DNA from: Pseudarthrobacter sp. IC2-21
GTDB lineage: Bacteria; Actinomycetota; Actinomycetes; Actinomycetales; Micrococcaceae
Direction of reading: 5' to 3'
Assembly: GCF_034048115.1 (NCBI RefSeq)
Contig: NZ_CP139145.1
Coordinates: 124,001-188,000 of the forward strand
Length of the DNA stretch: 64,000 nt
Within the stretch, counting starts at the first letter, position 1. Every line of letters starts with the position of its first letter. Made by a program: the position numbers and the translations under genes. The notes under the pieces are model-generated. The model did not search any database. It was not told the origin of the DNA and saw nothing but the letters and a program-made list of their open reading frames with translations. Shown piece after piece: positions 17,439-59,165 of this stretch.

Positions 17439-17474
17439 CCTGTCAGGTTGAGTTCTAGGCCCTTCCCCGGAGAA

Positions 17475-17550
17475 AGTCAAGACATAGGCGCCTCGTTTCG
17501 TCAGCACGGGCGTCGTTCAATCTAACTTGAACATAAGGCGCCGTTGAGCA
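17475..17550. other. Candidate recombinase site and promoter
   Basis: GTTCAA-TCTAAC-TTGAAC (17515-17532) is a perfect inverted repeat. Near-repeats ACATAGGCGCC (about 17482) and ACATAAGGCGCC (about 17531) flank it. The region is upstream of the recombinase, where res or inversion sites usually lie. Its role is inference from position and symmetry. Confidence 0.4.
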
Positions 17551-17617
17551 AGGTCTGCAGCCCGGACCGAATTCAGTTATTGGCCACGGGATCACCGGCA
17601 TGAACGTTCGCTCAGCC

Positions 17618-32927: not shown

Positions 32928-32978
32928 GCTAAATTTAGTGCATCCTAGTTAGACCACTCAATGAGACGGGGATCACAC

Positions 32979-33737: not shown

Positions 33738-33748
33738 CCCGAAACGTC

Positions 33749-33784
33749 CAGCCTGAACCGCACAGCCTGAACCACACAGCCTGG
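33749..33784 (+). repeat. Short tandem repeat
   Basis: A 14-base unit CAGCCTGAACCRCA occurs about 2.5 times in the gap between pxpA and the transporter gene. No function is evident; it could vary in copy number between strains. Confidence 0.7.
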
Positions 33785-33829
33785 CAGTCACCGCATCAAC
33801 CAAGCCACCCTCACCCCCGGAGGAACCCC

Positions 33830-35182: not shown

Positions 35183-35201
35183 GCGGCGCGGCCGGATTCC
35201 C

Positions 35202-39030: not shown

Positions 39031-39258
39031 GATCATCCTTTGCTCGAACGAACCTTGAAGTCGGCAATCCAGGCGCGGAATGCTCCGGATTGCCATGCCG
39101 CCCACAGTGCCCCGGCGCCATAGTGGCTACGCTATCCCAGCTGTGGGCGCGCGGGGAGTTTTTGGGACTGGTTTTTTGTGGCCGGAATGGGGGCAGAATG
39201 CTTCCGCTGAGTGGGAGCTTAGGTTGCCACCGGCGCCGTGACGGAACAAGGTTGCAGC

Positions 39259-40934: not shown

Positions 40935-41978
40935 TTACGAGAGCGTCGACGTATCAATCACGAAGCGGTAGCGGACGTCCGAAGCGAGGACTCGTTCGTA
41001 CGCTTCGTTGATCTTGCCGGCCGGGATGACCTCGATCTCGGCGCCCAGGTGGTGCTCGGCGCAGAAGTCGAGCATTTCCTGGGTCTCGCGGATGCCGCCG
41101 ATCATGGAACCGGCGAAGGAGCGGCGGCCGCCGATGAGGGCAAATGCGTTCACGGGAAGCGGCTCGGCCGGGGCGCCGACGTTCACCATGGCACCGTCGA
41201 GGGACAGCAGCTGCAGGTAGGAGCTGATGTCGATCGAGGCGCTGACCGTGTTGATGATCAGGTCGAAGCTGCCCGCCAGGTCCGTGAAAGTGGCCTCGTC
41301 GCTGGTGGCGTAGTAGTGGTCCGCTCCCAGCTTCAGTCCGTCCTCCTGCTTTTTCAGCGACTGCGACAGGACACTGACCTCAGCGCCCATGGCGTGCGCG
41401 AGCTTGACGGCCATGTGGCCGAGCCCGCCGAGGCCGACGACGGCGACCTTCTTGCCGGGACCGGCACCCCAGTGCCGCAAGGGGGAGTACGTGGTGACGC
41501 CCGCGCACAAAAGGGGAGCGGCGACGTCGAGCTCTATGCCTTCGGGGATGCTGACCACGAAGTTTTCGGTGACGACGACGTGGGTGGAGTAGCCGCCCTG
41601 GGTGATGGTGCCGTCGCGGTCCACGGCGCCGTAGGTGCCGGTGTTTCCGGCGAGGCAGTACTGCTCCTCGCCCTTCTTGCAGTTGACGCATTCGCCGCAG
41701 GAATTGACCATGCAGCCGACGCCGACGCGGTCGCCGACGGAGTGCTTGGTGACGGCGGTGCCGACCTCGGTGACGATGCCGGCAATCTCGTGGCCGGGAA
41801 CCAGCGGGTACTGCTGGGGTCCCCACTCACCGCGGACGGTGTGGATGTCCGAGTGGCAGATGCCGGCAAATTTGATCTCGATCAGAACATCGTGCGGGCC
41901 GACGTCGCGGCGTTCGATGGTGGTGGGGACGAGATCTCCGTCAGCGGACGGGGCAGCGTAGGCATGAGCGATAAGCAA
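40935..41978 (-). CDS. Zinc-dependent NAD(P) alcohol dehydrogenase
   Basis: 347 residues of the cinnamyl-alcohol-dehydrogenase-like MDR group. Catalytic zinc motif [15 protein letters not shown] near 40 and GHEIAG near 63. Structural zinc cysteines are in [15 protein letters not shown] near 96-110, with the nucleotide loop [13 protein letters not shown] near 174. It oxidises alcohols or reduces aldehydes. Start choice: AGGAG lies five bases before TTG 41978, giving [14 protein letters not shown]. The longer frame to 42074 begins with a non-family Pro/Arg leader. It is a single gene; broad substrate range is typical. Confidence 0.87.
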
Positions 41979-42098
41979 TATTTCTCCTATTGAGAGGGGC
42001 AGACAGCTTTCGGATGGAGCTGCTGGAGTTCGTGGCCGCGGGCGGGTGGCGCCGAGCGGGCACTCTTCCATCAAAGCGCATCCGGCAGTTCTGAGGGA

Positions 42099-42128
42099 GG
42101 CCCTGCCTTGAGGGGTACTGGCAGGGCC
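42099..42128 (-). terminator. Terminator of the MmyB-like regulator gene
   Basis: GGCCCTGCC (42099-42107) pairs with GGCAGGGCC (42120-42128), just past the regulator's stop in its reading direction. Confidence 0.6.
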
Positions 42129-42155
42129 CCCCTCGGTGAACCCGTACCTGGCGCC

Positions 42156-43046
42156 TTACAGGTTCCGGGCTGGCATCTTTGCGGTCTGCACGATGTTTTC
42201 CGTGGCGGCCCAGGAGGCGAGGAGTTTGAGGGCTTCCTCCGAGGGGCTGCCGGGCACGGCGGGGTAGACCGTCAGGGTGTGGCCGGGGTCCTCGTCCAGT
42301 TCCAGGACCTGGTAGTCCAGTTCCAGGAGCCCCACCACCGGGTGCTGAAACAACTTGGTGCCGGAGTAGTGGCGTCTGACATTGTGCGCTGCCCAGCGGG
42401 TGCGGAAGTCGTCGCTGCGCATGGAGAGTTCGCCCACGAGTTCGGCGATTCCCTTGTCATGCGGATTGCGGCCTGCTTCGCGGCGGAGGATGGCCACATT
42501 GGCGCTGGCGGCGCTGTTCCAGTCGGTATAGAAGTTGTGCGACCGCGGGTCCAGGAAGATGAACCGCGAGTGGTTCCCCGGCCGCGTCGCACCGCGGTAC
42601 ATGTCAGCGTAGAGGGCGTAGCACAGGGTGTTGGCGGCCACGATGTCCAGCCGGTTGTTGCCGATGAACGCGGGTGCGCCGGTGATGGCATCCAGCAGGT
42701 GCTGCAGCACGGGACGGACCCCGCGGCCTGTGGTGTTTGCCGGGCTGCGCTTGCGGCCGGAGGTCGCGGCCGCGCGTGCCAGGTCGTAGAGGTGATCATG
42801 CTCGGCGCGGTCCAGTTCCAGCGCGCCGGCGATCGAGTCGAGGACGCTGTCCGAGACGCCCGCGAGGTTCCCCCGTTCGAGGCGGGTGTAGTACTCCACG
42901 CTGACGCCCGCGAGGCGTGCGACTTCTTCGCGCCGCAGTCCGGGGACGCGGCGCCGGCCGCCGTAGGGTTCCAGGCCTGCCTGTTCCGGGGTGATGCGGG
43001 CACGGCGCGAGGACAGGAACTGCCGTACCTCTGCTCGGTTATCCAT
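42156..43046 (-). CDS. Xre-family regulator with MmyB-like ligand domain
   Basis: 296 residues. The N-terminal HTH (RVPGLRREEVARLAGVSVEYYTRLERGN) is at about 33-60. The C-terminal MmyB-type PAS-like domain follows (NRLDIVAANTLCYALYADM, then RFIFLDPRSHNFYTDW). This group, common in actinobacteria, is thought to bind fatty-acid-like ligands. It lies upstream of, and in the same direction as, the alcohol dehydrogenase, separated by a terminator. It may control that dehydrogenase, which is the usual neighbour type (inference). Confidence 0.85.
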   Translation of the reverse strand: MDNRAEVRQFLSSRRARITPEQAGLEPYGGRRRVPGLRREEVARLAGVSVEYYTRLERGNLAGVSDSVLDSIAGALELDRAEHDHLYDLARAAATSGRKRSPANTTGRGVRPVLQHLLDAITGAPAFIGNNRLDIVAANTLCYALYADMYRGATRPGNHSRFIFLDPRSHNFYTDWNSAASANVAILRREAGRNPHDKGIAELVGELSMRSDDFRTRWAAHNVRRHYSGTKLFQHPVVGLLELDYQVLELDEDPGHTLTVYPAVPGSPSEEALKLLASWAATENIVQTAKMPARNL

Positions 43047-43151
43047 GGGACTTCGTTACGGGGAACCCTGATCGGCGTGGGAGGTTCTGCTGGTGCCTTG
43101 TTGCGGGCTTCCGTGGTCCGGGGCCCGCAACGGCGAAACGAGGATTCGCAG

Positions 43152-43298
43152 TCAGACCCGGGACCTGCCTTGAATGAAATGGAAGATCAGCACAACCACT
43201 GCAACAACCAGAAGTATGTGAATAAGGCCGCCGCCGATATTGGCGAGCAGGCCCAAAAGCCAGAGAACTGCGATGATGATGGCTATCCAAAGCAACAT
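43152..43298 (-). CDS. Small lmo0937-like membrane protein
   Basis: 48 residues from ATG 43298 with AAGGAG six bases upstream. Two hydrophobic helices (MLLWIAIIIAVLWLLGLLANIGG and HILLVVAVVVLIFHFIQG) make up nearly the whole protein. It matches the small lmo0937-type family of unknown function, often stress-induced in Gram-positives. The longer frame to 43346 is not supported. Confidence 0.8.
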   Translation of the reverse strand: MLLWIAIIIAVLWLLGLLANIGGGLIHILLVVAVVVLIFHFIQGRSRV

Positions 43299-43438
43299 GG
43301 GACTCTCCTTGGTTTCGCTTGGCCGGGCACTGACCCGGCCTAACACCCACTCGGTATCGCGTGGTGATAATCACCATATTTCAGAAAATGGCTACTGGAT
43401 ACGGCGAAACACTAAGTAGGCTACATAAAATTTATGAG

Positions 43439-44644
43439 TCAAACCCGCCCGCTGATCACCCGGTCACGCCCGGCAAGAATGCCCATCACGGCGAGTACCG
43501 CCATGAGGCCCGCAGTGACAAGGAGCGGAAGCGTCCAGTCTCCGCTGACATCCCGAAGGCCGCCGAACATCACCGGCCCCGCCGCCGCGAGGGCGTAGCC
43601 AACGGACTGTGCCATGCCGGACAAAGACGCTGCCTGCGGGTAATTCACGGTCCGGAGGCTGAACAGCGACAGCGCAATGACAATGAGGCTGCCGCAGCCG
43701 ATTGCCCCCAGCAGGACCCACAGCAGAATGAGGTCCGGCGCAATGGCCAGCCCGAGGAACGTGACGAACGTCAGGGCGCCGCTGACAAAGGACACGAGCC
43801 GCTGGTCCGAACCCCGGTGGAGGATTCCGCCTGCGGCGAGGCTGGCAAAGACGCTGATGAGCAGGAAGATGGACAGATGGATACCGGCAGTCGTGGCCGG
43901 GACGCCGCGGCTTTGTTCGATGGTGGGCAGCCACGCCATGAGGACGTAGAAGGCGATCGACTGCAGCCCCATGAAGGCTGTCACCTGCCAGCCCAGGGCT
44001 GACGCCCAGGGCGACCGGTAGGAGACCTCCTGCCGGGCGGCGTGCGCGGCGCCCGTCGTGTGCCGGCGCAGCCACGGCAAAAGCACCGCCATGGCAAGGA
44101 GGGCCAGTCCCACCCAGATTCCGAGGGCAAGCCGCCAACCTGCCGGGGACGTCTGCGCGACAGGGACGACGACGGCGGCCCCGATTGCGGCGAAGGCCGC
44201 CTGGGTGGCGGTGTAGCTGCCCGTGACCTGGCTGACCCGCATCGGGAAGTCCCGCTTAACGAGCGAGGGCACCAGGACGTTGAGAAAGGCAATGGCCAGG
44301 CCGATCAGTGCGGTGCCTGCCCAGATGAAGCCGGGCACCGGCAAGGAGCGGAGCACGATGCCCGCGGCGAGGAACAGCAGGGAAAGCCACAGTGCCCGGT
44401 CCAGTCCCAGGCGGGAAGCGAAGGCGGGCGCCACCGGCGAAAAGACTGCAAACGCAATGAGCGGCAGGCCTGTGAGGAACCCTGCTGCGGCGCCGGATAA
44501 CTGCAGGTCGCTGCTGATGTTTGCGAGGACCGGTCCCACGCTGACAAAGGACACCCGAAGGTTGACTGCGATGAGCAGAAGGCCGATGAAGGCGAAACCG
44601 AACCTGACAGAGCGGTCCGACGCCTTCCTGGTTGCACCGGTCAT
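43439..44644 (-). CDS. MFS transporter, CynX/NimT type
   Basis: 401 residues, about twelve hydrophobic segments. The beginning FAFIGLLLIAVNLRVSFVSVGPVL and the LTGLPLIAFAVFSPVAP segment are typical of the cyanate permease/2-nitroimidazole transporter group, with NVLVPSLVKRDFP and GSYTATQAAFAAIGAAV further on. The substrate cannot be deduced. It stands alone, with about 205 non-coding bases separating it from the divergent small membrane gene. Confidence 0.83.
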   Translation of the reverse strand: MTGATRKASDRSVRFGFAFIGLLLIAVNLRVSFVSVGPVLANISSDLQLSGAAAGFLTGLPLIAFAVFSPVAPAFASRLGLDRALWLSLLFLAAGIVLRSLPVPGFIWAGTALIGLAIAFLNVLVPSLVKRDFPMRVSQVTGSYTATQAAFAAIGAAVVVPVAQTSPAGWRLALGIWVGLALLAMAVLLPWLRRHTTGAAHAARQEVSYRSPWASALGWQVTAFMGLQSIAFYVLMAWLPTIEQSRGVPATTAGIHLSIFLLISVFASLAAGGILHRGSDQRLVSFVSGALTFVTFLGLAIAPDLILLWVLLGAIGCGSLIVIALSLFSLRTVNYPQAASLSGMAQSVGYALAAAGPVMFGGLRDVSGDWTLPLLVTAGLMAVLAVMGILAGRDRVISGRV

Positions 44645-45384: not shown

Positions 45385-46662
45385 ATGTCATCGTCGACAG
45401 AAACGGCTGGCCGCTGTCCCTTCCGGTACGGCGCCGAAGCCCCCGCCGGGCACCACGGCTACGAGCCGTTCCAGATGAAGGATCCCTTCACCGCCTACGC
45501 TGAACTGCGGGCAGAACAGCCTGTCATGTTCGATGAACGCGTTGGCCTGTACGTTGTTTCCCGCTACGACGACATCAAGGCCGTATTCGAAGACTGGGAA
45601 ACCTTCTCCAGTGAAAACGCCCAGGCCCCCATCCGTGAACGCGGAGCCGCTGCCAGGAAGATCATGGAGGACGGCGGCTTCACCGCCTACTCGGGCCTCT
45701 CCGCGCGCCGTCCGCCGGAGCACACCCGCATCCGCGCCGTGGTCCAGAAAGCCTTCACGCCGCGCCGTTACAAGGCGCTGGAACCGTTCATCCGCGAAAA
45801 CGTCGTCACACTCATCGAGAAGATGCTCGCCCGCCCCGAACGCCGCGGCGATCTCGTCAAGGACCTCGCCTACGACGTCCCCACCATCACCATCCTGACC
45901 CTTATCGGCGCGGACGTCTCCCAGGTTGACACTTTTAAGCGCTGGTCCGATTCCCGGGCCGCCATGACCTGGGGCGACCTGACCGATGAGGAACAGATCC
46001 CGCACGCCCACAACCTGGTGGAGTACTGGCAGGAATGCCTCCGCCTGGTCCGCGTGGCACACGAGCAGGGCGGCGACAACCTCACCGGCGACCTGGTCAA
46101 AGCGCAGCAGGAAGGCGCTGAAATCTCGGACCATGAGATCGCGTCCGTCCTTTACAGCCTGCTCTTCGCCGGCCACGAAACCACCACCACCCTGATCTCC
46201 AACGCCCTGCGTGAACTGCTGGCGCGCCCGGAGCAGTGGCAGCAGCTGGTGGCGGACCCCAAGAAGATCCCCGCCGCCATCGACGAGGTCCTCCGCTACG
46301 CGGGCTCCATCGTCGGCTGGCGCCGCAAGGCCCTGAAGGACACCGAAGTGGGCGGCGTCGCCATCCAGGAAGGCTCCCAGTTGCTGCTCCTGATGGGCTC
46401 GGCCAACCGGGACGAAAGCAAGTTCGAAGCCGGCGAGGACTTCGACATCACCCGCCGCAACGCCCGCGAGCACCTCTCGTTCGGCTTCGGCATCCACTAC
46501 TGCCTGGGCAACATGCTCGCCAAGCTCCAGGCCAAGATCGCGCTTGAGGAAGTGGCCCGGCTTGCCCCGGACCTGCAGCTCGACAATCCGGACGGCATCC
46601 CCTTCCGCGAGAACCTCTCCTTCCGCGTCCCCGAGACCGTTCCTGTCAGTTGGAAGGCCTAA
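45385..46662 (+). CDS. creJ: Cytochrome P450 (CreJ-like alkylphenyl-phosphate oxidase)
   Basis: 425 residues. I-helix AGHETT at 262-267, K-helix EVLR at 301-304 and heme loop FGFGIHYCLG at 366-375 with ligand Cys 373. AGGAG lies five bases before ATG 45385. In the C. glutamicum cre pathway CreJ oxidises the methyl group of 4-methylphenyl phosphate, using ferredoxin CreF and reductase CreE. Both are encoded downstream here, and the phosphorylating enzymes follow directly (gap five bases). The assignment rests on the whole operon; a lone P450 would not be assignable. Confidence 0.82.
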   Translation: MSSSTETAGRCPFRYGAEAPAGHHGYEPFQMKDPFTAYAELRAEQPVMFDERVGLYVVSRYDDIKAVFEDWETFSSENAQAPIRERGAAARKIMEDGGFTAYSGLSARRPPEHTRIRAVVQKAFTPRRYKALEPFIRENVVTLIEKMLARPERRGDLVKDLAYDVPTITILTLIGADVSQVDTFKRWSDSRAAMTWGDLTDEEQIPHAHNLVEYWQECLRLVRVAHEQGGDNLTGDLVKAQQEGAEISDHEIASVLYSLLFAGHETTTTLISNALRELLARPEQWQQLVADPKKIPAAIDEVLRYAGSIVGWRRKALKDTEVGGVAIQEGSQLLLLMGSANRDESKFEAGEDFDITRRNAREHLSFGFGIHYCLGNMLAKLQAKIALEEVARLAPDLQLDNPDGIPFRENLSFRVPETVPVSWKA

Positions 46663-46667
46663 CCACC

Positions 46668-47747
46668 ATGCACAGCAATGAATACATCCAGTTTTTCGAC
46701 GGCGGCATTGAGCCGAAACTCGAAAACCTCGGCGGCAAGGGCGCATCCCTGGTCACCATGACCTCGGCCGGCATGCCCGTCCCGCCCGGCTTCGTCGTCA
46801 CCACCGCACAGTTCGATGCGTTTATGGACGAAGCCGGCATCACCGAGGAGACCCACCGGCTCCTTGCCGGCCTCGATCCCGAGGACATGGCCCAGGTGGA
46901 CAAGGTATCCGCCACCATCCGCGAGGACATCTGCTCCCGGCCCGTCCCGCCGGCCATGCGTGAGCTGACCATCAGTGCCTACGAATCCCTGATGAACCGC
47001 TTCGACGCGCCCGTTCCGGTGGCAGTCCGTTCCAGCGCGACCGCCGAGGACCTGCCCGACGCTTCCTTCGCCGGGCAGCAGGACACCTACCTGTGGCTCG
47101 ACGGCGTCAAGGCAGTCACCGAGCACATTCGCCAGTGCTGGGCCTCACTGTTCACCTCCCGGGCCATCATTTACCGGCTGAAGAACGACATCCCGAACGA
47201 GGGCCTGTCCATGGCCGTCGTCGTCCAGAAGATGGTCAACTCCCGGGTTTCCGGCGTCGCGATCACCATGGATCCCACCAACGGGGACCGCTCCAAGATC
47301 ACCATCGATTCCTCCTACGGGGTGGGCGAAATGGTGGTCTCCGGCCAGGTCACGCCGGACAACATCGTGCTGGACAAGGTCACGCTCGCCGTCGTCACCG
47401 AACACCTCGGTGACAAGCACGCCGAGCTGGTTCCGGACACGGGCGCCAAGCGCCTCGTGGAACGCGAGGTCGACGACGAACGCCGCGGCCGCCGCAGCCT
47501 CACCGATGGGGAACTCACCGCCGTCGCGCAGATGGCCAAGCGCGCCGAGAAGCACTACAAGTGCCCGCAGGACATCGAATGGGCCCTCGACGCGGACCTC
47601 CCCGACGGCGAGAACCTGCTGCTGCTCCAGTCCCGCCCCGAGACCGTCCACTCCTCCAAGCCGGCACCGCAAACCGCCCCGCAGCCCGTGGTCTCCGGCG
47701 GCTACTTCAGCGGAATCAGCGCCGGCAGCCTCAAGCCGTCAGCCTAA
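46668..47747 (+). CDS. creI: PEP-synthase-like ATP-binding subunit of an alkylphenyl phosphate synthase
   Basis: 359 residues corresponding only to the N-terminal nucleotide-binding half of PEP synthase. It has LENLGGKGASLVTMTSAGMPVPPGFVVTT, then [17 protein letters not shown] near 125 and the ending DIEWALDADLPDGENLLLLQSRPET. The mobile phosphohistidine domain is on the next gene. A split enzyme of this type phosphorylates phenols with ATP (phenylphosphate synthase in Thauera, CreHI in Corynebacterium). The symbol letter is assigned by collinearity with the cre order, so creI and creH could be swapped. Confidence 0.78.
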   Translation: MHSNEYIQFFDGGIEPKLENLGGKGASLVTMTSAGMPVPPGFVVTTAQFDAFMDEAGITEETHRLLAGLDPEDMAQVDKVSATIREDICSRPVPPAMRELTISAYESLMNRFDAPVPVAVRSSATAEDLPDASFAGQQDTYLWLDGVKAVTEHIRQCWASLFTSRAIIYRLKNDIPNEGLSMAVVVQKMVNSRVSGVAITMDPTNGDRSKITIDSSYGVGEMVVSGQVTPDNIVLDKVTLAVVTEHLGDKHAELVPDTGAKRLVEREVDDERRGRRSLTDGELTAVAQMAKRAEKHYKCPQDIEWALDADLPDGENLLLLQSRPETVHSSKPAPQTAPQPVVSGGYFSGISAGSLKPSA

Positions 47748-47812
47748 ACGCAGCAAAACAGCAAGGCTTCACCCACCCAGGCTCACTGCCGAGCCCTCCT
47801 GAAAGGACCGCC

Positions 47813-49681
47813 ATGTCCCTGAAGTCCTTCCCCAAACCCTCCGAGCTCGCGGTTCCCGCCGGCGCCGAGGGCTGGGAAAAGATCTACCCCTATTACCTCG
47901 TGTTCCAGGACAAGCTGAAGGAGCAGGAGGACGCCAAATTCTGGTTCTGCGACAGCCAGCACTGGCCCACTGTCTACAAGCCCTTCGAAACCATCGGCGG
48001 CGAGTTCGCGGTCAAGTGCCTGGGCCAGTACAACGCCCGGCACCTGATGATCCCCAACGCCAACGGCATCGAGTTCCGCGTCCACCTCGGCTACCTCTAC
48101 ATGTCACCCATCCCGGTGCCGGAGGACCAGATCGCCGCCCGGGTGCCTTTGTTCGAAGAGCGCGTGGGCTACTACTTCCAGAACTGGGACCGGCTCCTGA
48201 GGGAATGGCACGTCAAGGTCAAGGGCACCATCGCGGAGATGGAAACCATCTCCTTCCCGAAGCTCCCGGACATCGTGCCCATGGAGGACATCACCTCCGG
48301 CAAGGGCAAGGACGGTTCCGAAAAGCTGCTGGAAAGCTATGACCGCCTCATCCAGCTGGCCTACCAGAACTGGCAGTACCACTTCGAGTTCCTGAACCTG
48401 GGCTACATCGCGTACCTGGACTTTTTCAACTTCTGCAAGCAGGTCTTCCCCAACGTCCCTGACCAGTCCATCGCCACCATGGTGCAGGGCGTGGACATGG
48501 AACTGTTCCGCCCGGATGACGAGCTGAAGGCCCTGGCGAAGCTTGCCGTGGAACTCGGGCTGCAGGCTCACTTCAACAACACGGACGACGTCGACGCCAC
48601 CCTGGGTGCCATCGCTTCCGCTTCCGGCGGGGACCGCTGGATCGCCCAGTACGAAGCCGCCAAGGACCCGTGGTTCAACTTCACCGTGGGCAACGGCTTC
48701 TACGGCCACGACAAGTACTGGAACGAGCATCAGGAAATCCCGCTGGGCTACATCGCGGACTATATCCGCCGGGTGGACGAGGGCCAGGACATCATGCGCC
48801 CCGTCGAAGCCCTGATCGCCGAACGCGACCGCATCATCGAGGAATACCGGGACTTGCTCGAAGGCGAAAACCAGGCGCTCTTCGACGCCAAGCGCGGCCT
48901 CGCCGCCACCGCCTACCCCTACGTCGAAAACCACAACTTCTACATCGAGCACTGGACCATGGGCGTCTTCTGGCGCAAGATCCGCGAGCTCTCCCGCATG
49001 ATGCACGCTGAGGGCTTCTGGACAGAACCGGACGATCTGCTCTACCTGGGCCGCAACGAGGTCCGCGATGCACTCTTTGACCTGGTCACGGGCTGGGGCG
49101 TCGGCGCCAAGCCCATCGGCCCCGACTACTGGCCGGAGGAAATCGAACGCCGCCGCGGCATCGTGGACGCGCTCAAGACCGCCCGTCCCGCGCCCGCCCT
49201 GAACACTCCGCCGGAAATCATCACCGAACCCTTCACCCGCATGCTCTGGGGCATCACCACCGAGCAGGTCCAGCAGTGGCTGGGTGCCGGCGAAGCGGTG
49301 GAAGGCGGCGGACTGCGCGGCATGGCCGCATCCCCCGGAGTGGTGGAAGGACTGGCCCGCGTGGTCACCGACGCGGACCAGCTCTCCGAGGTCCAGCAGG
49401 GCGAGATCCTGGTGGCCACCGTGACCGCACCGTCCTGGGGACCGATCTTCGGCAAGATCAAGGCCACGGTCACCGACATCGGCGGCATGATGAGCCACGC
49501 CGCCATCGTCTGCCGGGAGTACGGCCTGCCGGCCGTGACCGGGACGGGCTCGGCCTCCACCACCATCAAGACCGGGCAGCGGCTGCGCGTCGACGGGACG
49601 AAGGGCACCGTCCAGATCCTCGACGCCGAGGACGACCTGCTGGTCACCGGCCCCGGCGCCCACAGCCACAGCCATGTCTGA
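47813..49681 (+). CDS. creH: Phosphohistidine/acceptor subunit of an alkylphenyl phosphate synthase
   Basis: 622 residues. The large N-terminal part (to about 480) is not found in PEP synthase and has many aromatic residues (WFCDSQHWPTVYKPF, YVENHNFYIEHWTMGVFWRK), suited to binding a phenol. The C-terminal swivelling domain has the phospho-carrier histidine in GGMMSHAAIVCREYGLPAV, around residue 562. AAAGGA lies before ATG 47813. It should pass phosphate from the ATP-binding subunit to the phenol. The stop overlaps the SDR start by eight bases. Confidence 0.8.
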   Translation: MSLKSFPKPSELAVPAGAEGWEKIYPYYLVFQDKLKEQEDAKFWFCDSQHWPTVYKPFETIGGEFAVKCLGQYNARHLMIPNANGIEFRVHLGYLYMSPIPVPEDQIAARVPLFEERVGYYFQNWDRLLREWHVKVKGTIAEMETISFPKLPDIVPMEDITSGKGKDGSEKLLESYDRLIQLAYQNWQYHFEFLNLGYIAYLDFFNFCKQVFPNVPDQSIATMVQGVDMELFRPDDELKALAKLAVELGLQAHFNNTDDVDATLGAIASASGGDRWIAQYEAAKDPWFNFTVGNGFYGHDKYWNEHQEIPLGYIADYIRRVDEGQDIMRPVEALIAERDRIIEEYRDLLEGENQALFDAKRGLAATAYPYVENHNFYIEHWTMGVFWRKIRELSRMMHAEGFWTEPDDLLYLGRNEVRDALFDLVTGWGVGAKPIGPDYWPEEIERRRGIVDALKTARPAPALNTPPEIITEPFTRMLWGITTEQVQQWLGAGEAVEGGGLRGMAASPGVVEGLARVVTDADQLSEVQQGEILVATVTAPSWGPIFGKIKATVTDIGGMMSHAAIVCREYGLPAVTGTGSASTTIKTGQRLRVDGTKGTVQILDAEDDLLVTGPGAHSHSHV

Positions 49682-50471
49682 TCTCAATATGCCTCATCCG
49701 GAATATGCCGAGCCGGGCATGGACGCGGAGTCGGGACGCACTGTGCTGATCACCGGTGCCGCTGGCGGGCTGGGCCGGGCGTTCGCGCTCGGCTTCGCCG
49801 GCCGGGGGTACCGCGTGGCGGTGGCGGACATCAACCTCGAAGGTGCCGAACAGACGGCCAAGCTCGTCCGCGAACTGGGCGCGGAAGCGGCGGCATTCGC
49901 CGCGGACGTCACCGGCGTGGACTCCACGGAGAACCTCGCGAAAAGCTGCGCGGACTTCGGCAACGGAAGCATCGACGTCGTGATCAACAACGCCGCGGTG
50001 TACGCCACGGTGACCCGCACCCGGTTCGAGGACATTGATCCGGCCGAATGGGACCTGGTGATGAACGTCAACCTCAAGGGCCCCTGGCTCATGACCCGTG
50101 CCGCGAGCCCCTACCTGCCCGAAGGCGGGCGCGTCATCAACCTCTCCAGTGCCACGATCTTCAGCGGCTCCGAACAATGGCTGCACTACGTCGCCTCCAA
50201 GGGCGGCGTAGTGGCCCTGACCCGGGTCATGGCCAAGGAACTGGGCCGCCGGGGGATCACGGTCAACGCGATCGCCCCCGGCTTCACCCTCACCGAGGCC
50301 AGCTACGGACTGATGGAAAACGCCGAAAACTACGGCGTGGACCGCGGCGCCATCAAACGGGCCAGCCAGCCGGAGGACATTGTGGGAGCTGCGCTGTTCC
50401 TCGCCGGGCCGGACAGTTCGTACTACACCGGCCAGACCATGGTGGTGGACGGCGGCCGGCAGTTCATCTGA
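49674..50471 (+). CDS. creG: Short-chain dehydrogenase (CreG-like)
   Basis: 265 residues, classical SDR. NAD(P) motif TGAAGGLGRA near 27, NNAAVYATV near 103, catalytic Ser in NLSSATIF, YxxxK as YVASKGG near 168 and terminal VVDGGRQFI. In the cre scheme an alcohol dehydrogenase oxidises 4-hydroxybenzyl alcohol, or its phosphate, to the aldehyde. It starts inside the end of creH, so it is coupled. An internal ATG at 49719 (before DAESGR) is a possible shorter start. Confidence 0.82.
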   Translation: MSDLNMPHPEYAEPGMDAESGRTVLITGAAGGLGRAFALGFAGRGYRVAVADINLEGAEQTAKLVRELGAEAAAFAADVTGVDSTENLAKSCADFGNGSIDVVINNAAVYATVTRTRFEDIDPAEWDLVMNVNLKGPWLMTRAASPYLPEGGRVINLSSATIFSGSEQWLHYVASKGGVVALTRVMAKELGRRGITVNAIAPGFTLTEASYGLMENAENYGVDRGAIKRASQPEDIVGAALFLAGPDSSYYTGQTMVVDGGRQFI

Positions 50472-50529
50472 CGCTGCCTGGCTGACCGTCCACTCCACCC
50501 CAACCAACTTCAACCCCCAAGGAGGACCA

Positions 50530-50850
50530 ATGCCAACGGTTCACTTCACCGATGCAGAAGGCGCTGTCCGCGACGTCGAAGGCAACGTGGGCGACTCGGT
50601 CATGGAAACCGCGGTGCGCAACGGCGTTCCCGGCATCGTGGCCGAGTGCGGCGGCTCGCTGTCCTGCGCCACCTGCCACGTCTTTGTCCGGGAAGACTGC
50701 GTTTCGCAGCTTCCGCCCATGGAGGACATGGAGGATGAGATGCTTTACGGCACCGCCGTGGACCGCGAGGACAACTCCCGGCTCTCCTGCCAGCTGCGCC
50801 TCACCGAGGAGCTCGAACTATTCGTCACCACCCCGGAAACCCAGGTGTAG
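50530..50850 (+). CDS. creF: 2Fe-2S ferredoxin (CreF-like, putidaredoxin type)
   Basis: 106 residues, a full-length adrenodoxin/putidaredoxin-type ferredoxin. Cluster cysteines are C40, C46, C49 and C87 (CGGSLSCATC and LSCQL). An AAGGAGG site gives a strong start at 50530. It carries electrons from the FAD reductase encoded two bases downstream to the P450 at the head of the operon. The P450, ferredoxin and reductase together make a complete class I system. Confidence 0.9.
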   Translation: MPTVHFTDAEGAVRDVEGNVGDSVMETAVRNGVPGIVAECGGSLSCATCHVFVREDCVSQLPPMEDMEDEMLYGTAVDREDNSRLSCQLRLTEELELFVTTPETQV

Positions 50851-50852
50851 CC

Positions 50853-52169
50853 GTGGGTGCGCAAGCAGTTGAACAGGCGGCAGAGGCCCCCGGCCAGGTC
50901 CCCACGCGGACCGGGCTCCTGATCATCGGTGCGAGCCAGTCGGGCGTCCAGCTCGCGGTCTCGCTCCGGGCCCTGGGTTTTGACGAACACATCACGCTTC
51001 TCGGCGACGAGGACCACCGCCCCTACCAGCGGCCGGCGCTGTCCAAGGAGTTCCTGCAGGGCACGGTGGAGAGCGAATCCCTCATTTTCCGCTCCAACGA
51101 CTACTGGGCCGAGCACAACGTGGAGCTGGTCAAAGGCGAATTCATTGTCCGGATCGACAAGGAGCCGGATGGTTCCGGGGTGGCGCACGCCTCCTCCGGC
51201 CGGGAATTCCCCTTCAAACGGCTGGCCCTTACCGTGGGTGCCCGCGCCCGGAAGCTGGACATCGAGGGCGGGGACCTGGACGGGGTGCTCTACCTGCGCA
51301 ACGCCGACGACGCCCTGGCGCTGAAGGCCCGGGTAGGCGATGCCACGGATGTGGTGGTGATCGGCGGCGGGTTCATCGGGCTCGAGGCCGCATCAAGCCT
51401 GCAGAAAATGGGGAAGAACGTCACCGTGCTCGAATTCGGGCCGCGGCTGGTGGGCCGGGCCGTGGGGGAGGAGACGGCCGAGTATTTCCTGCAGGCGCAC
51501 CGCGCCCGGGGTTTGGACATCCGCCTTAACACTAGTGCGGCGCGCTTTCTGCCAACCACCGCCGCAGGCAAGGAACAGACGTCAGTTGCCGCCGTCGAGC
51601 TTCAGGACGGCACGGTACTGCCGGCGCAGATTGTGCTGGTCGGCATCGGCGTCATCCCCAACACCCAGCTGGCCGAACAGCTTGGCCTGGCCGTGGACAA
51701 TGGCGTGGTGGTGGACCGCTTCGCGCTGGCCTCGGACGGCACCACCGTGGCCGTGGGGGACGTGGCCAACATGCCCAACCCGGTTCCCGGCTCGGAGCCC
51801 GGGGAGCGGATCCGGCTGGAAAGCGTCAACAACGCCATCGAGCATGCCAAAGTGGCCGCCTACTCGCTCACCGGCCGGCGCGAGGAATACGCCGGCATCC
51901 CGTGGTTCTGGTCCAACCAGGCGGACCTCAAGCTGCAGATCGCGGGCCTGTGCAACGGCTATGACCAGACGGTGATCCGGCGCGATGAGGAACGCGGAAA
52001 ATTCAGCGTCCTCTACTACCGCCAGGGCCGGATCATCGCCGCGGACTGCGTCAATGCCCCGCTGGATTTTATGGCCGTGAAGAACGCGCTGGCGAAGGGC
52101 CGGAACATCCCGGCGGACGCTGCGGCGGATCCCGCCACCCAACTTAAGACCATCACCACGGACAGCTGA
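50853..52169 (+). CDS. creE: NAD(P)H-dependent ferredoxin reductase (CreE-like)
   Basis: 438 residues from GTG 50853, two bases after the ferredoxin stop. FAD-binding site LLIIGASQSGVQLAVSLRALG near 23 and NAD(P) site VVVIGGGFIGLEAASSLQKMG near 165. The second FAD motif TTVAVGDVANMPNPVPG is near 295, with a C-terminal reductase domain containing IPWFWSNQADLKLQIAG. It resembles putidaredoxin and rhodocoxin reductases and should supply electrons to the P450. Confidence 0.9.
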   Translation: MGAQAVEQAAEAPGQVPTRTGLLIIGASQSGVQLAVSLRALGFDEHITLLGDEDHRPYQRPALSKEFLQGTVESESLIFRSNDYWAEHNVELVKGEFIVRIDKEPDGSGVAHASSGREFPFKRLALTVGARARKLDIEGGDLDGVLYLRNADDALALKARVGDATDVVVIGGGFIGLEAASSLQKMGKNVTVLEFGPRLVGRAVGEETAEYFLQAHRARGLDIRLNTSAARFLPTTAAGKEQTSVAAVELQDGTVLPAQIVLVGIGVIPNTQLAEQLGLAVDNGVVVDRFALASDGTTVAVGDVANMPNPVPGSEPGERIRLESVNNAIEHAKVAAYSLTGRREEYAGIPWFWSNQADLKLQIAGLCNGYDQTVIRRDEERGKFSVLYYRQGRIIAADCVNAPLDFMAVKNALAKGRNIPADAAADPATQLKTITTDS

Positions 52170-52208
52170 CTGCCTTAGACAGTAGGTTGGCCCACCCGAA
52201 GGAGCATT

Positions 52209-52979
52209 ATGAGCACCCCCAAGACTCCGGTCGCCGCGGTGGACCCCGCCCCAGGCGCGGATATCGGCGCCGTTACCGCCACGGAACCCGCGGACGCACT
52301 GGGCGACGCGTTCGCCGCTGAGTACAGCATCCGCCCCATCCCGGCGCCGGGCCCGGTGGACACCGCGCCCATCAGCACCACGCCGGCAGCCGTTGAGGAG
52401 CTGGACGCGCTGTGGAAGGCCGTGGTCCACGAGACACGGACCCGCGGCAATGACATTCACCTGCCCATTTCGCTGGCTTTCGCCGAGCGCCTGTGCCGGG
52501 CCTACCCGGACGCCGACGCTGACCTGGTGCGGGTAGCCACGCTGCTGCATGACACCGGCTGGGCGCACGTTGACGAATCCAGGATCATCTCGGAAGGGTT
52601 TGCCGGGGACTGGCGCAAAGCGGCCATCCGCTTTGAACATGAGCTCCAGGGCTGCAACGTGGCGCGCCGGGTGCTGCCCGGGCTGGGCTATTCGGCGGAG
52701 TTCGTGGAACGGGTCTGCGAGATCATCGACGGGCACGACACCCGGCCCGTGGCCCGCTCGCTGGAGGATGCCCTGATGCGCGACGCCGACCGGCTGTGGC
52801 GTTTTGACCAGGCCGGAATCGCACTGGCTTCGTCGTGGTTCGGCATGGACCCGGCCACGTACACCGACCGGCTGGCCACCGAGATTGTGCCCGAGCTCAT
52901 CACCCAGGCCGCGGCGGACATGGCCGAGGCCGACCTGAGCCGCTCCAACGCCCTGCTCAAGACGGCGGTGATCCGATGA
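52209..52979 (+). CDS. creD: HD-domain phosphohydrolase (CreD-like)
   Basis: 256 residues with AAGGAG before ATG 52209. Metal-binding motifs are LLHDTGW near 115 and CEIIDGHDTRPVARSLEDALMRDADRLWRF near 172-200. A histidine in NDIHLPISLAFAERL may be the first ligand. In the cre pathway the matching enzyme removes the phosphate from the oxidised aryl phosphate, giving free 4-hydroxybenzyl products. The N-terminal 50 residues are low-complexity Ala/Pro. It overlaps the aldehyde dehydrogenase start as ATGA. A paralogue lies at 39259. Confidence 0.82.
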   Translation: MSTPKTPVAAVDPAPGADIGAVTATEPADALGDAFAAEYSIRPIPAPGPVDTAPISTTPAAVEELDALWKAVVHETRTRGNDIHLPISLAFAERLCRAYPDADADLVRVATLLHDTGWAHVDESRIISEGFAGDWRKAAIRFEHELQGCNVARRVLPGLGYSAEFVERVCEIIDGHDTRPVARSLEDALMRDADRLWRFDQAGIALASSWFGMDPATYTDRLATEIVPELITQAAADMAEADLSRSNALLKTAVIR

Positions 52980-54490
52980 CCTCCACCACGCACTCTCCGT
53001 CGCTGGCCGCACGGGCCGAACTCTCGCTGCCGCACACGCACGTGGACACCATCTTCGTCGACGGCGCCTGGCAGCCGTCGCACGGAAAGGGCCGGAACCC
53101 GGTGACCGACCCCGCCACAGGCGAAGTCTGGGGCTCGGTGCCGGACGGAACTCCGGAGGACGTGGATGCCGCCGTCGGCTCTGCCCGGCGCGCGTTTTCC
53201 AGCACCGACAGCGGGGCGTGGCCCCGGCTGACCCCGTCCGAGCGGGCCGCGTACCTGCTCCGGATTGCCGACGAAGTGGAGAAGCGGGCTGAGGAGCTGT
53301 CCCTGACCAACTCACGCGAAAACGGCTCACCCGTGGCCGAATCCGCCGGTGCGGCGGCCAACGCGGCCGGCATCTTCCGCTATTTCGCCACCCTCGCCGA
53401 GTACCTCGAACGGGAAGACGTCCGCCCGTTCCCGCGCGGCGGCGGCGAGTCCGTGGTGCGGCGCGAACCGCTTGGAGTCTGCGCGCTGATCGCGCCGTGG
53501 AACTTCCCCATCAACCTCGTGATCATCAAGCTGGCACCCGCACTGCTCGCCGGCTGCACCGTGGTGATCAAACCGGCGTCGCCCACGCCGCTGTCCATCC
53601 GCGTGATCATCGACGCCGTGGCCGCGGCAGGTGTCCCGGCCGGCGTCGTGAACCTGGTGACGGGTTCCGGCCGGCTGGGGGACGTGCTGGTCAAGCACCC
53701 GGGCGTGGCCAAGGTAGCCTTCACGGGTTCGACGCCGGTGGGCCGCAAAATCGCCGCGGCCTGCGGCGAGCTGCTGCGCCCGGTCACCCTCGAGCTGGGC
53801 GGAAAGTCCAGCGCCATTGTGCTGCCCGACGCCGACCTGGATGCCATGTCCAAAGTGTTGATCAAGTCTTCCATGCGCAACACCGGGCAGACCTGCTACA
53901 TCTCCACCCGGATCCTTGCGCCCGTCAGTCGCTACGACGAGGTGGTGGACATGGTCACCGCCACCATCGCCGCCGGGAAGCAGGGCGACCCGCTGGAGCC
54001 GGACACGGTCTTTGGCCCGTGCGCCACGGAGTCGCAGTACCGGACCGTGCTGGAGTACGTGGAGTCGGGGCTGGCCGAAGGCGCCCGGGCCACCACCGGC
54101 GGGCGGGCTGCATCGTTGGCCGGCGGACTGGAGAACGGCTACTTCGTGGAGCCCACCGTGTTCGCGGACGTCACCCCGGACATGCGGATCGCCCGCGAGG
54201 AGATCTTCGGGCCGGTGATCACCATCCTGAAATACGAAACCGTTGACGAAGCGGTGGCCCTGGCCAACAACACCGAGTTCGGCCTGGGCGGCCTGGTGTT
54301 TGGGGCCGATCCCGAGGCCGCGCTCGCGGTGGCTGACCGCATGGACACGGGTTCGGTGGGCCTGAACTTCTTCGCCTCCAACCACGCCGCACCGTTCGGC
54401 GGCCGGCACGATTCCGGCCTCGGCACGGAGTACGGGATCGAGGGGCTGAACGCCTACCTGAGCTACAAGTCGATCCACCGGAAGGTGTAG
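52976..54490 (+). CDS. creC: Aldehyde dehydrogenase (CreC-like)
   Basis: 504 residues, NAD(P)+-dependent ALDH superfamily. IAPWNFPINLVIIKLAPALLAG near 168, catalytic Glu in TLELGGKSSA near 277, nucleophile Cys in NTGQTCYISTRIL near 307 and EEIFGPVITILKY near 408. It should oxidise 4-hydroxybenzaldehyde, or the phosphorylated form, to the acid, completing the side-chain pathway toward 4-hydroxybenzoate. It is the last gene of the operon, followed by a strong hairpin. Confidence 0.87.
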   Translation: MTSTTHSPSLAARAELSLPHTHVDTIFVDGAWQPSHGKGRNPVTDPATGEVWGSVPDGTPEDVDAAVGSARRAFSSTDSGAWPRLTPSERAAYLLRIADEVEKRAEELSLTNSRENGSPVAESAGAAANAAGIFRYFATLAEYLEREDVRPFPRGGGESVVRREPLGVCALIAPWNFPINLVIIKLAPALLAGCTVVIKPASPTPLSIRVIIDAVAAAGVPAGVVNLVTGSGRLGDVLVKHPGVAKVAFTGSTPVGRKIAAACGELLRPVTLELGGKSSAIVLPDADLDAMSKVLIKSSMRNTGQTCYISTRILAPVSRYDEVVDMVTATIAAGKQGDPLEPDTVFGPCATESQYRTVLEYVESGLAEGARATTGGRAASLAGGLENGYFVEPTVFADVTPDMRIAREEIFGPVITILKYETVDEAVALANNTEFGLGGLVFGADPEAALAVADRMDTGSVGLNFFASNHAAPFGGRHDSGLGTEYGIEGLNAYLSYKSIHRKV

Positions 54491-55781: not shown

Positions 55782-56600
55782 ATGACCAACGACGCTCTTC
55801 GGCCTGTCTACTTCCTTTCGGACAGTACCGGCATCACCGCCGAAACCCTCGGCAATACGCTGCTGACCCAGTTTCCGGCGAACAACTTTGACCGCATCAC
55901 GGTCCCCTTCATCACCACGGTGGACCAGGCCAGGTCCGTGGTGGGCACCATTGACCGCCTGGCCGCCACCGGCCCGCGGCCCATCGTTTTTTCGACGGCC
56001 GTCAGCGGCGATATCCGCCAGACTCTCGCCACCTGCCAGGGGATCGTCGTTGATCTCATCGGAACCCATGTGGGGCAGCTGGAGCAGGCCCTCGGCTCTC
56101 CGGCCAGCGCCGTGCCCGGGCGGGCCCATGGCCTGGGGAACGCCGAGCGGTACCAGTCGCGGATGGCCGCCGTCGAGTACGCCATGGAGCACGACGACGG
56201 CCAGAGCCTGCGGGCGCTGGAGAAGGCGCAGGTCATCCTGGTGGCGCCGTCACGCTGCGGAAAAACCCCCACCACGATGTACCTGGCGCTGCAGCACGGC
56301 ATCTTCGCAGCGAACTTCCCCCTGGTGGACGAGGACTTCCAGCGGGAAGGGCTGCCCAAGCCGCTGCGGCCTTTTGTTGAGAAGTGTTTCGGGCTGTCCT
56401 CCAACCCGCTGCGGCTAAGTCAGATCCGGACGGAACGGCGGCGCGGGTCATCCTACGCGTCGCTGCGGCAGTGCGGCTTTGAGCTGCGCAGTGCCGAGCA
56501 GTTGTACGTCTCGCACCGGATTCCGTACCTGAACTCAGCGTCGGTGTCGGTCGAGGAAATGGCCGCCACCATCCTGCAGCGCATGAACCTCAAGCATTAG
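55782..56600 (+). CDS. ppsR: Phosphoenolpyruvate synthase regulatory protein (kinase/pyrophosphorylase, DUF299)
   Basis: 272 residues. N-terminal VYFLSDSTGITAETLGNTLLTQFP, central P-loop-like VAPSRCGKTPTTMYLALQHG near 152, and IRTERRRGSSYASLRQC near 210. The family uses ADP to phosphorylate, and phosphate to dephosphorylate, PEP synthase or PPDK, turning the enzyme off and on. The ppsA gene follows 153 bases downstream, which supports PEP synthase as the target. It might also act on the related CreI/CreH proteins, though that is speculation. Confidence 0.9.
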   Translation: MTNDALRPVYFLSDSTGITAETLGNTLLTQFPANNFDRITVPFITTVDQARSVVGTIDRLAATGPRPIVFSTAVSGDIRQTLATCQGIVVDLIGTHVGQLEQALGSPASAVPGRAHGLGNAERYQSRMAAVEYAMEHDDGQSLRALEKAQVILVAPSRCGKTPTTMYLALQHGIFAANFPLVDEDFQREGLPKPLRPFVEKCFGLSSNPLRLSQIRTERRRGSSYASLRQCGFELRSAEQLYVSHRIPYLNSASVSVEEMAATILQRMNLKH

Positions 56601-56753
56601 GGAAAATTTTCACAAACTGAGTGTGGCAGACATCATGTTGGAAACAGGGCCCCGGACCTGTCACTGTAGACAGGATTCGCGCCCACCGAACGGCTACAGC
56701 CCGCGACCGGGGCGGCACCACCGCATGCCATCATCTGCAAAGGAGCAGCAACC

Positions 56754-59165
56754 ATGACTACAGACATCCTGTGGTTCTCAGAACTCGGCCTCAAAGACCT
56801 GGACAAGGTGGGCGGCAAGAACGCCTCCCTCGGCGAGATGGTGCAGAACCTCACGTCTGCCGGCGTCCAGGTCCCGGACGGCTTCGCGACCACCGCCGAC
56901 GCCTACCGCAGCTTCCTCGCAGACTCCGGCCTGGACCAGCGCATCGCGGACCGCATGCTGGGCCTGGACACCGATGACGTGACGGCCCTCGCCGCGGCCG
57001 GCCAGGAAATCCGGACCATGATGCGTGAGACGCCCTTCCTGCCGGACTTTGAAGCGCAGATCCGCGACTCCTACCAGCAGTTGGTGGACAAGCACGGCGG
57101 GTCCGAGGACCTGTCCTGGGCGGTCCGCTCGAGTGCGACCGCGGAAGACCTGCCGGACGCCTCCTTCGCGGGGCAGCAGGAGACCTTCCTGAACGTCCGC
57201 GGCATCGACAACATCCTGCTCGCCATCAAGGATGTCTTCGCCTCCCTCTATAACGACCGGGCCATCGCCTACCGTGTGCACCACAAGTTCGAGCACGCCG
57301 ATGTTGCGCTGTCGGCGGGCGTCCAGCGCATGGTGCGCTCCGACGTCGGGGCTTCCGGCGTCATGTTCACCATGGACACCGAATCCGGGTTCCAGGACGC
57401 CGTGTTCGTCACCTCCTCCTACGGCCTCGGCGAGGCCGTGGTCCAGGGTGCCGTGAACCCCGACGAGTTCTACGTGTACAAGCCCGCACTGCAGGCCGGC
57501 CGTCCCGCCATCCTCAAGCGGGGACTGGGCGAGAAGGCCCTCCAGATGACCTACACGAACAGCCAGGAGATCGGCCGGACCATCGACTTCGTCCCGGTTG
57601 AGGCTTCGCTCCGGAACCGTTTCAGCCTGACGGACGACGACGTCGAGCAGCTCGCGCGCCATGCCGTCGCCATTGAAAACCATTACGGCCGTCCCATGGA
57701 CATCGAGTGGGGCAAGGACGGGATCGACGGCGGGCTGTACATCCTGCAGGCCCGCCCGGAGACCGTGCAGTCCCGCCGTGCCGCGGGCAGCCTGAGCCGC
57801 TTCCGCCTCAACGGCACCAGCCGGGTGCTTGCCGAAGGCCGCGCCATCGGCCAGCGCATCGGCGCCGGCAGCGTCCGCATCCTGACCTCGATCGACCAGA
57901 TGGCCGCGTTCAAGACCGGCGACGTCCTGGTTGCGGACATGACCGATCCTGACTGGGAACCGATCATGAAGCGCGCCTCCGCCATCGTCACGAACCGCGG
58001 CGGACGCACGTGCCACGCGGCCATCATCGCCCGCGAACTGGGGATTCCCGCCGTCGTCGGCACCGGGGACGCCACCCAGGCGCTCTCCGACGGCATGGAC
58101 GTGACGGTCACCTGCGCCGACGGTGAGGCCGGCCTGATCTACGAAGGGCTCCTGGACTTCACGGTCGAGGAAACCGCGGTCACCCAGCTGCCCGAAGCCC
58201 CGGTCAAGGTCATGATGAACGTCGGCACCCCGGAGCAGGCGTTCACTTTTGCGCAGCTGCCCAACCATGGCGTGGGCCTGGCGCGGCTGGAATTCATCAT
58301 CAACCGCCAGATCGGCATCCACCCCAAGGCGCTGCTGAACCTGGACGACCAGCCGGCGGAGGTGGCCGCGGAAATCCGCGAACGGATCGCCGCGTACGCC
58401 AACCCGCGCGAGTACTACATCAAGCGCCTGGCCGAGGGTGTGGCCACCATCGCCGCGGCCTTCGCGCCGAATCCGGTGATTGTGCGCATGTCCGACTTCA
58501 AGTCCAACGAGTACGCCAACCTCATCGGCGGGCCCGCTTACGAGCCGCACGAAGAGAACCCGATGCTTGGCTTCCGCGGCGCGTCGCGCTACCTGGACCC
58601 GTCCTTCCGCGACTGCTTCGACCTCGAATGCGAAGCACTGTCCTTTGTCCGCAACGAGATGGGCCTGACCAACGTCAAGCTGATGATCCCGTTCGTCCGC
58701 ACCCTGGACGAGGCCCGCGGTGTCATTGACCTGCTGGCGGAGAACGGCCTCAGGCGCGGCGAGAACGGCCTCGAAGTCATCATGATGTGCGAGATCCCGT
58801 CCAACGCGCTGCTCGCCGATGAGTTCCTGGACTACTTCGACGGCTTCTCCATCGGCTCCAACGACATGACCCAGCTGTCCCTCGGCCTGGACCGGGATTC
58901 GGCCACGGTCGCCGCCGGTTTCGACGAGCGCGACCCGGCCGTCAAGAAGCTCCTCAGCATGGCCATCAAAGCCTGCAAGGAGCGCGGCAAATACGTGGGC
59001 ATCTGCGGCCAGGGCCCCAGCGACCACGCGGACTTCGCCGAATGGCTCGTCGGGGAAGGCATTGATTCCGTCTCCCTGAACCCGGACACCGTGGTGGACA
59101 CCTGGCTCCGCCTCGCCGGCGGGGGTGTTGGCGCCGGGGTTGGCGCCGGCGCGTCAGCGAACTGA
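56754..59165 (+). CDS. ppsA: Phosphoenolpyruvate synthase
   Basis: 803 residues, full length. N-terminal ATP-binding domain ([36 protein letters not shown]), swivelling phosphohistidine domain ([22 protein letters not shown], His near 422) and a C-terminal PEP/pyruvate barrel ([37 protein letters not shown]). It makes PEP, AMP and phosphate from pyruvate and ATP for gluconeogenesis. AGGAGCAGC precedes ATG 56754. It is regulated by the upstream ppsR product and ends at a strong terminator. Its N-terminal and swivelling domains are homologous to creI and the creH C-terminus. Confidence 0.95.

Follow-up and report, generated by a model that had tools for sequence, protein, structure and literature searches.

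In Corynebacterium glutamicum, p-cresol is catabolized by the products of an operon that runs from cg0637 (creC) to cg0645 (creJ) (PMC7764795). We found that a window of 64,000 nucleotides from Pseudarthrobacter sp. IC2-21 (the whole stretch of DNA analyzed, G000:C1:124001-188000, in a single-contig genome of 4.27 Mb) contains a cluster with the same eight genes in the same order, encoding proteins that are 64-78% identical to those of a C. glutamicum-type cluster. As judged by homology, this cluster encodes an already described pathway, here in a host that is not a Corynebacterium. An earlier reading of this DNA (the original prediction) captured the eight-gene core and overlooked two upstream genes, one for an IclR-family regulator and one for a second HD-domain hydrolase that we call HD2. 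The predicted unit is larger than eight genes: both of these genes and two operator-like palindromes belong to it as well.

Two other described routes also begin with a two-component dikinase. In the Hpe pathway of Rhodococcus rhodochrous GD02, HpeHI phosphorylates the phenol first, as in the Cre pathway (PMC12167813). The next steps differ and consist of carboxylation by HpeCBA and the action of a NagD-like phosphatase; HpeH shares 46% identity with CreH, and HpeI 40% with CreI (PMC9618137). The phenylphosphate synthase PpsAB of Thauera and Aromatoleum resembles CreHI in having a serine before the catalytic histidine, where HpeH has a cysteine (PMC12167813), and differs in that it starts anaerobic phenol catabolism. 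HpeH, CreH and PpsA are about 45% identical to one another (PMC12167813). It is unusual for a phenol to be phosphorylated ahead of C-H oxidation. A biocatalyst that oxidizes alkylphenols has been built on this principle (PMC9549646).

An eight-gene cre cluster in Pseudarthrobacter

The original prediction claimed a complete gene set in the order J-I-H-G-F-E-D-C at 45385-54490. We found all eight open reading frames (ORFs) there, on the plus strand, and Pfam and NCBIfam searches recovered the domain families that had been assigned to them (Table 1). The genes had also been described as mostly coupled, which fits because neighbors either overlap or are 2-65 bp apart (gaps of 5, 65, -8, 58, 2, 39 and -4 bp from J to C). 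The H protein matched NCBIfam NF006150 at 1295.9 bits (cut-off 650).

We found that all eight proteins are similar to their Cre counterparts, supporting a cre-type aryl-phosphate pathway (pairwise identities in Table 1). The comparison was made with genome G461, whose P450 is identical to PDB 5gwe over 400 residues. We take 5gwe to be C. glutamicum CreJ; the database title is only "Cytochrome P450". Among solved structures, the window P450 matched PDB 5xjn/7ccf and 5gwe at 711 bits, compared with 245 bits for the next solved P450. Two docking residues are given for 5GWE in PMC10879549, Thr81 and Arg193; no single offset matched both to a T and an R of the PDB chain. The dedicated redox partners, CreF and CreE, are present, as are the alcohol and aldehyde dehydrogenases, CreG and CreC. 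We also checked for low identity to Cre proteins combined with a closer match to another pathway, which the original prediction had named as evidence against it, and found no such combination.

Phylogeny placed H with CreH. In a maximum-likelihood tree that included H proteins of 21 chosen cre loci, the window H was inside a 24-row clade (support 100/100) together with the reference CreH and other cre-locus proteins. The 19 rows of other dikinases fell outside this clade; the program warned that some long outer branches were possibly joined falsely. The catalytic motif of the window H is MMSH (Ser561-His562) and is near-invariant over 80 loci. These loci are the best 80 of 508 relatives in a scan with a CreH alignment, and all counts out of 80 below refer to these closest relatives.

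Conservation of the cluster in relatives

The eight genes J-I-H-G-F-E-D-C are complete, collinear and on one strand in 74 of the 80 loci. Recurrence of the same genes, order and strand in so many loci indicates that the arrangement is not due to chance. The six exceptions are L040, L061 and L084, which are cut by a contig end, and L081, L082 and L086. L081 (Streptomyces sp. SID13031; 7412-12269) contains H-G-F-E-D-C, with no J or I detected in the 7.4 kb before H. In the cre clusters of L082 (Microbacterium lacus) and L086, D follows G without F and E, and L086 is cut at H; the P450 in these two loci would require other redox partners.

Loci of this type were found in Arthrobacter, Pseudarthrobacter, Sinomonas, Paeniglutamicibacter, Georgenia and Rhodococcus, and also in Nocardioides, Microtetraspora, Streptomyces, Cryobacterium and Microbacterium. 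The trait is scattered, since 21 of 394 genomes of the class have an H-type dikinase (E up to 1e-50). A search of 242 genomes of Corynebacterium (the genus of L060, Corynebacterium gallinarum) found matches (E up to 1e-100) in 16. The window and Pseudarthrobacter sp. H3Y2-7 (L029) have H proteins of identical sequence (100%), and the two strains are probably closely related. Arthrobacter sp. C2 (CP042428.1) has two complete cre clusters, L052 and L059, on one chromosome, with H proteins 81% and 79% identical to that of the window. In the C. glutamicum-type record, creC is adjoined by an ORF of 121 amino acids (aa); neither the window nor any of the 91 other loci searched gave a match to it.

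A linked IclR regulator and operator-like palindromes

We found that an IclR gene accompanies the cluster. In 63 of the 80 loci, its end is less than 500 bp upstream of creJ. Of the remaining loci, nine lack creJ or have it at a contig edge, in four the IclR gene is 0.5-4.5 kb from creJ, and in four no close IclR gene was found. In sister loci of Corynebacterium an IclR gene adjoins creJ, whereas in the window (and in L029) it is 4.5 kb upstream, behind three genes on the minus strand. These three encode an alcohol dehydrogenase, an MmyB-like regulator and a major facilitator superfamily (MFS) transporter. We provisionally set them aside as parts of the pathway: among 85 loci, all three are found only in L029 and L030, and the first two in L036.

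The best NCBIfam match of the IclR protein was to TIGR02431 (the PcaR/PcaU/PobR family) at 146 bits, below the cut-off of 284.75. It resembles PobR/PcaR-type regulators in this match and in that a similar palindrome separates an IclR gene from pobA in this genome. It differs from them in its linkage to HD2 and, in relatives, to creJ.

We identified an operator-like palindrome, with the consensus TTCCRCTNAGYGGAA, by aligning the regions upstream of creJ. At two or fewer mismatches, it was present before creJ in 56 of the 72 loci (of 80) in which this region was testable and before HD2 in 15 of 24, compared with 34 of 1600 random stretches, which were drawn from the same loci as the sites and may overlap true sites. 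A similar pattern, with up to three mismatches, had seven matches in the window; the mean for shuffled sequence was 2.36, and 2 of 100 shuffles reached seven. A narrow pattern with an AG core, widened at one base to admit the HD2 site, matched exactly two sites in the whole genome, those before creJ and HD2 (control, zero). A looser pattern matched nine places in the genome (control, one). One of these is flanked by pobA and an IclR gene, and three belong to a P450 cluster that has its own IclR gene. Based on the linkage and the palindromes, we suggest that the IclR protein is probably the regulator of the cre regulon.

A looser pattern, with no mismatch, also marked genes for later steps in part of the relatives. 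Near-cre pobA genes, identified by NCBIfam, had a site in 5 of 14 loci (L034, L066, L070, L071 and L080), and near-cre pcaH genes in 3 of 12 (L066, L069 and L071); neither count has a matched control. In L071, a different IclR gene likewise has a site of this kind beside it. Paralogous regulators thus seem, from these positions, to use related sites.

A region elsewhere in the genome (G000:C1:803500-818500; L176) contains ORFs for a P450, a Fer2-type reductase and dehydrogenase-like proteins, its own IclR gene and three TTCC..GGAA palindromes, and it resembles a further catabolic cluster under the control of a related regulator. In the cre locus L064, a related palindrome is directly 5' of a phenol 2-monooxygenase gene (16698-18706; NF006144, 866 bits).

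HD2, a second HD-domain hydrolase

HD2 is distinct from CreD. In a tree without an outgroup, a 100/100 split separated 27 HD2 rows from 23 CreD rows (22 chosen rows and the CreD of the window, which fell on the CreD side); the HD2 rows of L029 and L058 were omitted. HD2 did not group within the CreD family, and the two are 29-33% identical over the alignment. Seven residues (H59, H89, D90, H118, H150, D166 and D168 in HD2 numbering) are invariant in 24 HD2 and 6 CreD rows. HD-domain metal hydrolases have the ligand set H...HD...H...H...D, and HD2 fits this pattern at the sequence level. Neither CreD nor HD2 had an informative match among solved structures.

We found that HD2 is associated with cre genes. 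At more than 45% identity, it is linked to cre in 39 of the 80 loci, mostly immediately upstream of the IclR gene; 26 of these 39 have clean ORFs, and 24 have enough upstream sequence for the palindrome test above. The position varies: HD2 is divergent in L094, L097, L101, L102 and L107, downstream of C in L051 and L058, and between the IclR gene and creJ in L062. Two matches upstream of the IclR gene, in L053 (39%) and, as a short fragment, in L034 (38%), fall below the 45% limit but are nearer to HD2 than to CreD.

Among the 394 genomes of the class, proteins of the CreD and HD2 families (E up to 1e-20) occurred in four, and all four have cre genes. G000 (the genome of the window) and G029 have both CreD and HD2, G195 has CreD only, and G027 has HD2 only. 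The G027 locus (L157, 1-12313) encodes J, G, F, E and C proteins at 61-69% identity and has two IclR matches and HD2, with no CreD found. Its kinase pair H-I is distant (46% and 41%) and encoded on the opposite strand. In this genome, HD2 is predicted to stand in for CreD.

We also found HD2 at a distance from cre. Of 27 cre genomes with no linked HD2, eight carry an unlinked copy (61-88% identity), and P. oxydans is a ninth genome with HD2 distant from cre (83%). These unlinked genes are 22-131 kb from cre or on another contig. The palindrome was present upstream in 9 of 9 at up to three mismatches and in 6 of 9 at up to two, compared with 218 and 100, respectively, of 1800 random stretches of these loci, which are short, so that the stretches overlap the true sites. 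The operator seems, from these counts, to stay with the HD2 gene when HD2 relocates. In P. oxydans, the unlinked HD2 is adjoined by genes for an MmyB-like regulator and an alcohol dehydrogenase.

Co-occurrence with cre, the shared palindrome, the conserved residues and the genome lacking CreD lead us to suggest that HD2 is probably a second aryl-phosphate phosphohydrolase. We found no literature on HD2, the operator or cre genes in relatives of Arthrobacter in titles and the openings of abstracts, where HD2-like proteins were queried only as "phosphohydrolase"; this is weak evidence of novelty.

Features and neighboring genes

Table 1. Positions of the cre genes and associated features in the window. 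Percentages are pairwise identities to the C. glutamicum-type cluster unless noted.
Feature	Position	Strand	Evidence
HD2, second HD-domain hydrolase; likely start ATG 39259	39238-40005	+	Pfam HD 5.1e-08
IclR-family protein, probably controlling the cre regulon	40054-40848	+	IclR_C and HTH_IclR; linkage to creJ in relatives
Intervening block: zinc alcohol dehydrogenase, MmyB-like regulator, MFS transporter	40935-44644	-	Between the IclR gene and creJ
creJ, cytochrome P450	45385-46662	+	76.2% over 400 aa vs P450 of L146, which equals PDB 5gwe over 400 aa
creI, ATP-binding subunit of aryl-phosphate synthase	46668-47747	+	PPDK_N 7.4e-109; 69.7%
creH, substrate-binding and phosphohistidine (swivel) subunit	47813-49681	+	PEP-utilizers mobile domain; 77.6%; CreH clade; Ser561-His562
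creG, short-chain dehydrogenase/reductase (SDR) alcohol dehydrogenase	49674-50471	+	adh_short_C2 8e-59; 72.3%
creF, 2Fe-2S ferredoxin	50530-50850	+	Fer2 1.6e-07; 71.7%
creE, FAD ferredoxin reductase	50853-52169	+	Pyr_redox_2 and Reductase_C; 68.4%
creD, HD phosphohydrolase	52209-52979	+	HD 1.2e-08; 64.5%
creC, aldehyde dehydrogenase	52976-54490	+	Aldedh 5.5e-157; 70.6%
Operator-like palindrome TTCCGCTGAGTGGGA	39202-39216		42 bp upstream of the HD2 ATG
Operator-like palindrome TTCCGTCCAGTGGAA	45269-45283		Upstream of creJ

Two neighboring groups of genes were left out of the pathway. At 32961-38707, the window contains genes for LamB/YcsF, carboxyltransferase (CT_A_B, CT_C_D) and biotin carboxylase, a set that we take to encode 5-oxoprolinase. 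After the cre genes, at 55782-59165, are Kinase-PPPase and phosphoenolpyruvate (PEP)-synthase/PPDK-type genes, the latter 38% identical to creI over the ATP-binding part. This pair probably belongs to central metabolism.

Discussion

Our results are most consistent with a cre-type regulon, to which we assign a probability of roughly 0.88. In this regulon, CreI would bind ATP, and CreH, via a phosphohistidine on its swiveling domain, would phosphorylate the hydroxyl group of p-cresol or, less probably, of another para-alkylphenol. Electrons from CreE and CreF would allow CreJ, the P450, to oxidize the methyl group of the aryl phosphate, and CreD would take the phosphate off. CreG and CreC would convert the alcohol and the aldehyde to 4-hydroxybenzoate, the most likely end product. 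The upstream IclR protein would act on the palindromic operators before creJ and before HD2. HD2 would probably be an active second HD phosphohydrolase of the regulon that does the job of CreD or serves another aryl phosphate. Homology, gene order, conservation, tree splits, palindromes and co-occurrence were computed; the reactions, the substrate, the action and inducer of the regulator and the role of HD2 are predictions.

From 4-hydroxybenzoate, ring cleavage would be reached through a PobA-like protein and PcaH, whose genes are in another part of the genome. The PobA-like protein (contig 4127533-4128690) matched NF006091 at 534.9 bits (cut-off 351) and TIGR02360 at 417 bits, below the cut-off of 538.7. 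PcaH (contig 4142556-4143212) matched TIGR02422 at 351.3 bits (cut-off 296.4), and a weaker match that neighbors it may be PcaG. The palindromes at pobA and pcaH in relatives suggest 4-hydroxybenzoate as the end product and, from that, a para-alkylphenol with a one-carbon side chain as the substrate.

Several observations weigh against parts of this regulon. No site was found at two mismatches in 16 of 72 creJ and 9 of 24 HD2 upstream regions, and the consensus was derived from creJ sites, some of which were then counted with it. Related palindromes adjoin other IclR genes (those of pobA and of the P450 cluster in this genome, and that of pcaH in L071), so the pairing of IclR proteins with sites is ambiguous, and the pobA and pcaH sites may belong to paralogous regulators. 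HD2, which the window adds to the C. glutamicum gene set, was found in none of the 15 Corynebacterium genomes tested, which have CreH at 73-79% and, in each case, a single CreD-like match (35-39%). The 16th Corynebacterium genome with the dikinase (G527, H 46%) was outside this test. HD2 was also not found, linked or unlinked, in 19 of the 27 cre genomes that have no linked copy. The core pathway would therefore not need HD2, given its absence from these two groups.

The kinase might act on another phenol, in which case the cluster would not be an alkylphenol route; the candidates are unsubstituted phenol and the hydroxyphenylethanones used by the Hpe pathway. HpeHI and PpsAB are homologs of CreHI with the same two-subunit chemistry (PMC12167813, PMC9618137), and genes for a biotin carboxylase and a carboxyltransferase (35115-38707) are upstream of HD2. 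However, those carboxylase genes accompany a LamB/YcsF gene, and the identities of HpeH and HpeI to CreH and CreI given above (from Table 1 of PMC9618137) compare with 77.6% and 69.7% for the window proteins. The P450, moreover, has a CreJ partner at 76%. We rejected a route of the Hpe or phenylphosphate-synthase type because the kinase is too distant and because neither an HpeCBA-type carboxylase nor a NagD-type (HpeD-like) phosphatase is among the eight genes; we regard a cluster for some other phenol as very improbable. A cre-type pathway for a different para-alkylphenol, such as 4-ethylphenol, 4-methylguaiacol or one with a longer chain, is a closer alternative. The C. glutamicum system accepts a range of p- and m-alkylphenols (PMC9549646), and a second phosphohydrolase could handle a second substrate. 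Yet G and C have conserved counterparts in the p-cresol system, and the type of palindrome at near-cre pobA and pcaH in part of the relatives indicates that a one-carbon chain is converted to 4-hydroxybenzoate. We therefore favor p-cresol and consider another alkylphenol unlikely.

HD2 could also be a neighbor with another role, for example in nucleotide metabolism, since the HD domain is general, the solved-structure searches were uninformative and many cre genomes lack the gene. This seems doubtful to us: in the sample of 394 genomes HD2 occurs exclusively with cre, it is linked in nearly half of the 80 loci, the palindrome is present whether HD2 is linked or has moved, and in one cre genome it is the sole CreD-like protein. 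We propose, with moderate confidence, that actinobacterial cre regulons contain two interchangeable clades of phosphohydrolases, CreD and HD2, and that HD2, controlled through the same IclR-type operator, has the dedicated role of a second phosphatase for aryl phosphates. Corynebacterium would do without it; elsewhere it would move with its operator and replace CreD where the kinase has been swapped for a distant HI pair, as in G027.

The conserved, compact actinobacterial cre module extends well beyond Corynebacterium. To it we add a candidate second phosphatase and a candidate regulator, the latter with a defined palindrome; as predicted from the sequence, HD2, the IclR protein and the palindromes make the Pseudarthrobacter cluster a variant with a testable new component. 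The phosphatase step sets the timing of phosphate removal. If our proposal is correct, CreD and HD2 would share out the phosphorylated intermediates or broaden the range of phenols. The reason for starting such catabolism by phosphorylation has been called unclear (PMC12167813), and genomes with CreD, HD2 or both are a genetic handle on why phosphorylation comes first.

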